20,289 bases of DNA from IMG/VR virus record IMGVR_UViG_3300033571_010519, positions 1-20,289 of that record; one strand, 5' to 3'. This DNA comes from a virus. Below, one piece after another: positions 5,408 through 6,117 of the stretch. Both the position numbers and the translations under genes were made by a program. The notes beneath the pieces are model-generated. The model saw only the letters and a program-made list of their open reading frames with translations. It did no database searches and was not told the origin of the DNA. Every line of letters starts with the position of its first letter. The stretch's first letter is position 1.

Positions 5408-5689
5408 TCACCACTTCGTTTTGTCGGCCCAGTATGCCGCTGACATCTTACCTTTCTTGATATTCTCGGCATGTCGAGCTTTGAAGGACTCCCGGCGGTT
5501 CTTATAGCTCTCGCTTTCACCCTTTTTAGGCGGTGAACCAGTCACACCCTGCTGGCCGAAGCGGATTGTTTTCACCTGTTCGCCCTGTTTGGCTACAACA
5601 ACATGGCTTTTCGTGGGATGTGATGGCGTGCGTTTAGGCTTATTATAGCCGGAAACGCCAACTCTAGCGAGACGTGGGTCTTTGCTCAT
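5408..5689 (-). CDS. Small basic phage protein upstream of terminase (DUF6321-like?)
   Basis: The product has 93 residues and is strongly basic, with no cysteines and few hydrophobic stretches. It begins SKDPRLARVGVSGYNKPKRT and contains HVVVAKQGEQVKTIRFGQQG and a C-terminal KKGKMSAAYWADKTKW. I recall this pattern (xSGxNKPKRTP... SHVVVAKxG... IRFGQQG... KGKMSAAYWAxKxKW) from many phage and metagenomic genomes, where I believe it is catalogued as a domain of unknown function; the number DUF6321 is from memory and unchecked. Charge suggests nucleic-acid binding. It sits 14 bases before the large terminase gene and is the first gene after the 359-base non-coding gap. No good SD is seen, only AGGGGA about 17 bases from the ATG. 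Confidence 0.8.
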   Translation of the reverse strand: MSKDPRLARVGVSGYNKPKRTPSHPTKSHVVVAKQGEQVKTIRFGQQGVTGSPPKKGESESYKNRRESFKARHAENIKKGKMSAAYWADKTKW

Positions 5690-5708: not shown

Positions 5709-5736
5709 TTGATTGACTTGCAAGGGTGAAGATATT
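5709..5736 (+). promoter_or_regulatory. Possible sigma70-like promoter for the plus-strand RNA
   Basis: TTGATT at 5709-5714 and GATATT at 5731-5736 are separated by 16 bases; each matches the sigma70 consensus at four of six positions. A start at about 5743-5745 would place the RNA start just before the first hairpin (5748). This is a weak match, and the host consensus is unknown. Confidence 0.3.
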
Positions 5737-5742
5737 GCGGCA

Positions 5743-5835
5743 AATAAGGTTCGCTCCGTCGCATGGTGTGATCCGTCCTCCTGCGGCGAACCGCAAAAGG
5801 GCCAGCACTATGCGACAGTGTTGGCCTTTTTGTTG
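5743..5835 (+). ncRNA. Candidate small RNA with two hairpins and complementary loops
   Basis: Hairpin 1 pairs GGTTCGC (5748-5754) with GCGAACC (5786-5792). Hairpin 2 pairs AAAAGGGCCAGCACT (5795-5809) with AGTGTTGGCCTTTTT (5817-5831). The 7-nt loop of hairpin 2, ATGCGAC (5810-5816), is the exact reverse complement of GTCGCAT (5758-5764) inside the loop of hairpin 1, so a kissing-loop or pseudoknot contact is possible. The two non-Watson-Crick positions of hairpin 2 are G-U as plus-strand RNA but A-C as minus-strand RNA, which favours a plus-strand transcript, opposite to all genes here. The loop of hairpin 1 also carries CCTCCT (5777-5782 region), the anti-Shine-Dalgarno sequence, so base pairing with SD-led mRNAs is conceivable. 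No known RNA family is recognised; transcription is inferred. Confidence 0.55.
5795..5831 (+). terminator. Intrinsic terminator (plus strand)
   Basis: A 15-bp stem (13 Watson-Crick and 2 G-U pairs as plus-strand RNA) with a 7-nt loop ends in a run of five T and TGTT. It may act weakly in the other direction too, since the left arm begins AAAA, but the minus-strand stem would have two A-C mismatches. Confidence 0.65.
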
Positions 5836-5967
5836 GTTACTTGCCCACCGTCCAAACAAAACAGGGCAGCAAAGCGGAGACGTTAGCAAGCTCGACACGC
5901 CAGCATTGAGACGCTGTGCTTTCCGTGGCTAAACGGAATATCTCGCAGGGGGCGCAAGTTCCAGGGC

Positions 5968-6031
5968 GAGTCTAAACAAGCCTGGATGGTCGCCTCTCCT
6001 CACCACCATTTCCATGGGGGGAGGGGGGGTC
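5968..6031 (+). repeat. G-rich intergenic element, copy A
   Basis: The element consists of GAGTCTAAACAAGCC (5968-5982) and, 31 bases later, ATGGGGGGAGGGGGGGTC (6014-6031). Both blocks recur in the same order on the minus strand at 11044-10995: GAGTCGCAACAAGCC (13 of 15 identical), then ATGGGGGGAGGGGGTC (same apart from two fewer G). Spacing differs (31 versus 19 bases). The copies are in inverted orientation 5 kb apart, each in a stretch without a recognised gene. Function unknown; a protein or packaging site, or a G-quadruplex former, are possibilities. Confidence 0.6.
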
Positions 6032-6048
6032 TTGGCAGAGAGAGAGGA

Positions 6049-6117
6049 TTAATCCTTCTTCAGCAGATAGTAGAACACAAAGCTGAAGCCGATAAAATGG
6101 ATTAGAAAGTCAATCAT
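6049..6117 (-). CDS. 22-residue hydrophobic membrane peptide
   Basis: The reading frame begins at the ATG 6117-6115, which overlaps the stop codon of the preceding gene (ATGA at 6114-6117), and ends with TAA at 6051-6049. The product starts MIDFLIHFIGFSFVFYYLL and ends with KKD, so almost its whole length is one hydrophobic segment long enough to cross a membrane, with a positively charged end that would stay in the cytoplasm. The stop/start overlap is the same as at many other gene junctions in this window, which is the main reason to believe it is translated. It resembles no named family. A small membrane-active or accessory lysis peptide is possible but not shown. It is the last gene before the non-coding gap. 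Confidence 0.5.
   Translation of the reverse strand: MIDFLIHFIGFSFVFYYLLKKD

Follow-up and report, generated by a model that had tools for sequence, protein, structure and literature searches.

In attenuators and antisense copy control of the pT181 RNAI/RNAII type, formation of a terminator hairpin is opposed by pairing to a complementary strand farther 5′, and a short RNA ends in the terminator. The prohead RNA of phi29 carries two complementary loops within one phage-encoded molecule, and these vary in sequence whilst their pairing is conserved. The sar antisense RNA of P22, approximately 70-90 nt in length, consists of two hairpins, the second of which is a terminator, and is encoded on the strand opposite to the phage genes. 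HEARO (HNH endonuclease-associated RNA and ORF, the IscB/IsrB omega RNA) is a mobile, intergenic structured RNA found directly 5′ of an optional nuclease ORF, with many copies lacking the ORF. Lastly, ROOL and GOLLD are large RNAs encoded by phages; their function is unknown, and their junction loops form covarying kissing pairs. The linkers of GOLLD sometimes hold tRNAs, whilst the covarying junction-loop kissing pair of ROOL is intermolecular (PMC12286853).

Here we compare with these systems a locus from a 20,289 nt stretch of viral DNA (IMG/VR record IMGVR_UViG_3300033571_010519; hereafter the window). It comprises a kissing-loop RNA (region A) and, directly 3′ of it, a second structured RNA (region B), together forming a cassette. 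Like sar, region A has two hairpins, the second terminator-like, on the strand opposite to the phage genes; however, no neighbour or target is constant from one carrier to the next. Its loops are complementary, sequence-variable and pairing-conserved, as in the phi29 prohead RNA, but in many carriers the cassette is not tied to packaging genes. Moreover, the Rfam model of the prohead RNA had no match, phi29-type packaging is absent and the terminase is of the Terminase_6N type. As in the pT181 type, region A would be a short RNA whose terminator hairpin may compete with a complementary strand 5′ of it. In contrast to pT181, the pairing partner is contained in the same RNA and no repressor gene lies downstream. 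The cassette resembles HEARO in being mobile and intergenic, with a structured RNA directly 5′ of an optional nuclease ORF that many copies lack. However, the nucleases here are small proteins of the HNH or PD-(D/E)XK-like kind, rather than IscB/IsrB with RuvC parts, and the cassette is bipartite, with a U-run and a covarying kiss in its first module. With ROOL and GOLLD it shares a covarying kissing pair and, in some copies of B, a tRNA-like arm recalling the GOLLD linkers, but it is smaller (330-390 nt), has no Rfam match and has nuclease ORFs attached. As there is no Rfam match and the ORFs are not IscB-like, the cassette is filed under neither HEARO nor ROOL/GOLLD.

Database searches

No Rfam match was found for the window (at E 10), for 10 carriers (at the gathering threshold), for carrier contig L015 (at E 5) or for four HNH-bearing carriers (at E 0.5), in keeping with the view of the first-pass annotation that the layout belongs to no described family. 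In particular, the Rfam covariance models for HEARO, GOLLD, ROOL, OLE and group I/II introns had no match in the window or the carriers searched. A group I/II intron was rejected on this basis and because the element lies between genes on the opposite strand. The cultured phages of INPHARED and the plasmids of PLSDB contained no match to the cassette. A search of 398 Pseudomonadota genomes yielded no RNA match above approximately 31 bits (chance level), no terminase match and one chance match to a B motif, and a pattern scan of genome contigs yielded 7 unrelated matches without kissing loops; absence across genomes therefore rests on these samples. No description of this layout was found in the literature searched, most subscription papers being outside the search.

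Two hairpins with complementary loops

All phage genes in the window are on the minus strand. The element opposes the flanking late gene and lies in a gap bounded by a 72-codon ORF and by a small, conserved phrog_7595 gene of unknown function (5408-5689, minus strand), its downstream neighbour, which is found upstream of the large terminase. Region A (5741-5833, plus strand) was matched by covariance model R2 at 72.9 bits. P1 is formed by GGUUCGC (5748-5754) and GCGAACC (5786-5792) and contains both the kissing strand a, GUCGCAU (GTCGCAT in DNA, 5758-5764), and the P2 hairpin (5765-5777), in which GGUG (5765-5768) pairs with CGUC (5774-5777), including a tandem G-U. The terminator-like P3 hairpin (5795-5831), U-rich on its 3′ side, has arms AAAAGGGCCAGCACT (5795-5809) and AGTGTTGGCCTTTTT (5817-5831) that form 15 pairs, exactly two of which are G-U on the plus strand. 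Its loop contains a′, AUGCGAC (ATGCGAC in DNA, 5810-5816), the exact reverse complement of strand a. The first-pass annotation had both hairpins, the loop complementarity and the two G-U pairs correct to the base.

When G-U pairs are allowed, the complementarity of a and a′ reaches 12 pairs (5758-5769 with 5805-5816), such that the loop helix would enter the tip of P3. The minimum free energy structure of the window itself is a long nested fold joining both loops by this 12-pair helix (-50.1 kcal/mol, z -5.5). As a general ground state this rod was rejected, being the minimum free energy structure in only 3 of 27 members. Folding energy alone is evidently insufficient to decide the structure, and it is covariation that decides. 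Two further helices were considered. P0, pairing the A-rich 5′ leader with the U-rich 3′ tail, is convincing by eye but was rejected (own 13.0 versus swapped 12.5, permutation P ~0.1), whilst an alternative hairpin P4 around AAACC is weak (P ~0.03) and is left unclaimed.

Relatives and covariation of region A

Terminase-bearing relatives yielded homologous gaps, and covariance model R2 detected a single copy in each contig. Scanning IMG/VR for patterns drawn from P1 and P2 added carriers without terminase similarity, and later scans that used region B only brought in more. In total, 77 metagenomic phage contigs carry the element, including the window. In the alignment of P1-P3, 91% of cells are paired and 15 of 22 pairs show compensatory change: 4/7 in P1 (98% paired, 27 distinct sequences, both arms from the same alignment), 3/5 in P2 (74% paired) and 8/10 in P3 (95-96% paired). 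Double-change cells numbered 52, compared with 12.9 in shuffled alignments and 2-14 in slid structures.

Pairing between a and a′ is kept in all 39 distinct family members, with 6-10 Watson-Crick pairs formed by 29 different loop sequences. The first-pass annotation had named a covariance search over related phages as a check and, beforehand, compensatory changes in the two loops as decisive; such changes were found, and both the stems and the loop complementarity are kept in homologous gaps. In an alignment-free comparison, the mean pairing was 7.64 Watson-Crick bp for a member’s own loops versus 4.21 when loops were swapped between relatives (0/20,000 permutations). The extension of the pairing into the P3 tip likewise gave 0/20,000 permutations; however, the permutations ignore the relatedness of members, and competition at the P3 tip could therefore reflect shared ancestry. 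Inheritance alone is evidently untenable for the a/a′ complementarity, given the number of unrelated loop sequences.

Moreover, five contigs with region B (L160, L196, L198, L203 and L204) contain a front RNA of unrelated sequence. Four of these (all but L196) share the same layout, with 7-9 bp between the terminator loop and an upstream strand, and inspection of L196 revealed a 15-bp version of the loop pairing. Taken together, these comparisons clearly point to region A being real, and not a product of chance, with its RNA shape preserved by evolution. A separate observation is that a hairpin GACTC-GAAA-GAGTC, or a close variant, occurs just 5′ of the unrelated-sequence region A in L160, L198, L203 and L204.

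Strand, promoter and terminator signals

When P1-P3 are read on the plus strand there are 53 G-U cells versus 6 A-C cells. Folding the alignments of A, class 1 B and class 2 B on both strands favoured the plus strand each time. G-U versus A-C usage and the both-strand folds thus show region A as a predicted plus-strand structured RNA, which, with its kissing loops, is what had been proposed for it at the outset.

A candidate sigma-70-like promoter on the plus strand (5709-5736; TTGATT at 5709-5714 and GATATT at 5731-5736, separated by 16 nt) is weak, with 8/12 matches. The motif that the first-pass annotation had seen ending at 5736 is present, and the upstream regions of 39 members exceed shuffled sequences in mean score (8.56 versus 7.34), but the window alone is indistinguishable from shuffles (P 0.49). 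The promoter-like part lies inside the mobile block and its sequence is not common to distant carriers.

P3 followed by a U-run has the G+C-rich form of an intrinsic terminator. At least 5 T among the 8 nt after P3 were found in 36 of 39 distinct members, the run being short in L023, L035 and a few others, and UUUUU also follows P3 in the sequence-unrelated versions in L160, L198, L203 and L204. Conservation of the U-run, including in these versions, argues that P3 stops transcription. The P3 hairpin did not appear in a generic promoter and terminator scan of the window, probably because the T run is taken up in the stem itself.

A second structured RNA follows region A

In every carrier a noncoding stretch of at least 220 nt, of several classes, directly follows A. 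That of the window belongs to class 1, which is conserved in 26 contigs, and extends on the plus strand from 5834 to 6074 (3′ end approximate, 6050-6074); similarity of the window with L012 ends at A+333, and with L018, L071 and L082 at A+309. The RNA of approximately 88 nt originally proposed is therefore incomplete: it corresponds to the front module, A, behind which every carrier has a second structured RNA. For class 2 B, 60 pairs were predicted, 31 of them with compensatory changes, and double-change cells numbered 115 versus 34 in shuffled alignments and 6-19 in slid structures. Class 1 contains fewer changes, with compensatory changes in 11 of 29 pairs. Folded as single sequences, copies of B have energies only slightly below those of shuffles, and for L039 and L014 not below at all; hence the case for B rests on covariation in classes 1 and 2.

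Scans that began with B found A upstream in 69/69 copies having upstream sequence. All 26 matches for class 1 had A upstream, and the 51 matches for class 2 consisted of 43 with A, 2 at a contig start and 6 chance matches in coding sequence. The first helix of B begins a few bases past the U-run of A, leaving no room for a separate promoter, so transcripts of B would have to pass A, which argues for read-through from the promoter of A. No covarying pairs between A and B were found. Near-identical copies of A precede a class 1 B in L071 and a class 2 B in L068; from this pair, B modules are evidently exchanged behind A.

Several further features of B were observed. Near the end of the window’s B is a G-rich stretch, ATGGGGGGAGGGGGGG (6014-6035), whose G runs are kept in all class 1 copies and which could form a G-quadruplex or a hairpin between C/U-rich and G-rich strands. 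Class 2 B contains an apparent covarying pseudoknot between UUCGGC/UUCGGU (A5 columns 76-81) and a conserved loop near 170-177 (GCCGA/ACCGA). In L175, L171 and L058/L041, B has extra arms with tRNA T-arm-like sequence (GCAGGTTCAAATCCTGC or similar) and a long acceptor-like closing stem; an ARAGORN scan of L041 and L058 found no tRNA.

Mobility, genomic context and nuclease ORFs

Regions A and B form a unit of approximately 330-390 bp with sharp edges that is common to unrelated phages. For example, L005 and L116 are similar from -2 to 381 (85.5%), with nothing outside. Of 299 contig pairs that showed some similarity within 3-3.5 kb, 171 had it confined to the cassette, although contig ends limit some flanks. 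A close relative, L016, has both flanks but is missing the cassette as a whole block, which measures 425-605 bp between those flanks in L076, L071, L014 and L019. A+B evidently moves between unrelated phages as one unit.

Other carriers contain the element far from the terminase, e.g. beside capsid and scaffold genes, which leaves the packaging role suggested by the first-pass annotation without support. Insertion into the late operon is evidently tolerated at several places. In L041, L072, L073 and L074 the cassette was seen in the opposite orientation to a capsid-like gene and the structural gene after it, between which it lies.

On the strand of the cassette, immediately after B, HNH ORFs are found at four loci: L039 and L069 (above the Pfam cut-off), L059 (below it) and L064 (by sequence motif). 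A PD-(D/E)XK-like ORF occurs at one or two loci, namely L004 (a weak HSDR_N match) and L005, whose start appears similar by sequence reading. The nuclease ORFs begin 222-338 nt after A; they encode 136-268 aa, or 76 aa in the case of one fragment, and the best that Pfam gives for them is an HNH match. The remaining carriers have small ORFs or no ORF behind B. Within the HNH ORF of L069 (4782-4846, minus strand) there is also a sub-threshold match to the type-P1 twister ribozyme (E-value 5.5e-8; 48.3 bits, with a gathering threshold of 67.2).

Models for the cassette

Comparison of the carriers shows a predicted plus-strand structure, a covarying kiss, a U-run, adjacency of A and B, movement as a unit and optional nuclease ORFs. 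From these we infer the function of the cassette, including its transcription, termination, read-through and regulation. The reading we tentatively favour, at a little under even chances, sees A as the self-terminating leader, or attenuator, at the front of a mobile cassette of structured RNA, its terminator loop docking on the 5′ hairpin of the same molecule. Host RNA polymerase would start just 5′ of 5748 on the plus strand, and the nascent RNA would fold the P1/P2 hairpin before P3, the latter shaped like an intrinsic terminator. Loop a′ of P3 would then dock on strand a inside the first hairpin. The extension of the a/a′ pairing into the P3 tip implies that docking would compete with the tip, loop helix and P3 contending for three bases. 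The majority of transcripts would stop past P3, giving a compact RNA approximately 90 nt long, whilst read-through transcripts would contain A, B and, where present, the nuclease ORF; A would thereby act as an attenuator for the cassette. In addition, the free short RNA could act in trans by kissing nascent RNAs of like kind; this would account for loop letters that drift freely whilst complementarity is kept. Against attenuation are the weak promoter of the window, the few members with a short U-run and the pairing of the same A with different B classes (L071 versus L068), in which no A-specific response to B is visible. Moreover, many copies have no downstream ORF, so that attenuation would often have no protein product to act on.

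The strict linkage of A and B bears on two other explanations, both rather unlikely in our estimation. In one, A and B are a single continuous structured RNA of approximately 330-390 nt with P3 as its third helix, and the J1/2-L3 kiss may be intermolecular, driving homo-oligomers as in ROOL/GOLLD. The horizontally shared unit is exactly A+B, the two were adjacent in every B copy that could be inspected upstream (69/69), the B regions of L041, L058, L171 and L175 have variable T-arm-like arms, as GOLLD linkers can have, and a covarying junction-loop kiss in ROOL proved intermolecular (PMC12286853). However, this sits poorly with the U-run after P3 (36/39 members and the unrelated-sequence versions), with the lack of a covarying A-B pair, with a layout of A that is identical despite different B classes and with a helix between the 5′ leader and 3′ tail that was unsupported when tested. 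In the other, A acts alone and in trans, as a small RNA of approximately 90 nt directed at host or phage mRNAs, with B an unrelated neighbour. Its own promoter-like region, compact fold and terminator form would suit such an RNA, but it is then difficult to account for A being found strictly with B and transferred together with it. Moreover, the exposed a and a′ vary freely and pair mutually, such that no fixed target sequence is displayed, and the sequence is replaceable wholesale (L160, L198).

A fold conserved with unrelated sequence and restricted to phages could also be expected of a protein-binding or decoy RNA, e.g. against host defence or a nuclease, for which only the fold would matter; with no known decoy family matched in Rfam and no known partner, this is improbable. 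A DNA-level element, such as a cruciform, a cos or pac site or a replication structure near terminase genes, is very improbable: the copy in the window is near a terminase gene, but the pairing is strand-asymmetric, the promoter and U-run are arranged as for an RNA and the terminase is distant in other carriers. Least credible, and close to dismissed, is translational control in which CCTCCT in the first loop sequesters phage AGGAGG ribosome sites, as the first-pass annotation had suggested. CCTCCT is indeed present at 5777-5782, and six AGGAGG sequences precede plausible start codons outside the element, but CCTCC was found in only 1 of 62 member sequences, that of the window, which refutes it as a conserved function.

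Implications

The cassette adds a well-supported, undescribed RNA family to those of phages, present on 77 metagenomic contigs and absent from Rfam and from the cultured phages and plasmids searched. It joins three themes, namely mobile RNA-plus-nuclease cassettes, terminator-linked kissing loops and ornate phage RNAs. A kiss whose sequence is free but whose pairing is conserved offers a clean experimental handle on termination, stability and oligomerisation. It is possible, though on balance unlikely, that the cassette represents a new class of mobile RNA element, in which a front RNA with a private, drifting kissing code provides self-specific control or oligomer assembly ahead of exchangeable structured RNAs and homing-type nucleases. 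If self-specific control is true, each RNA would act only on copies of its own kind, in the manner of plasmid incompatibility.
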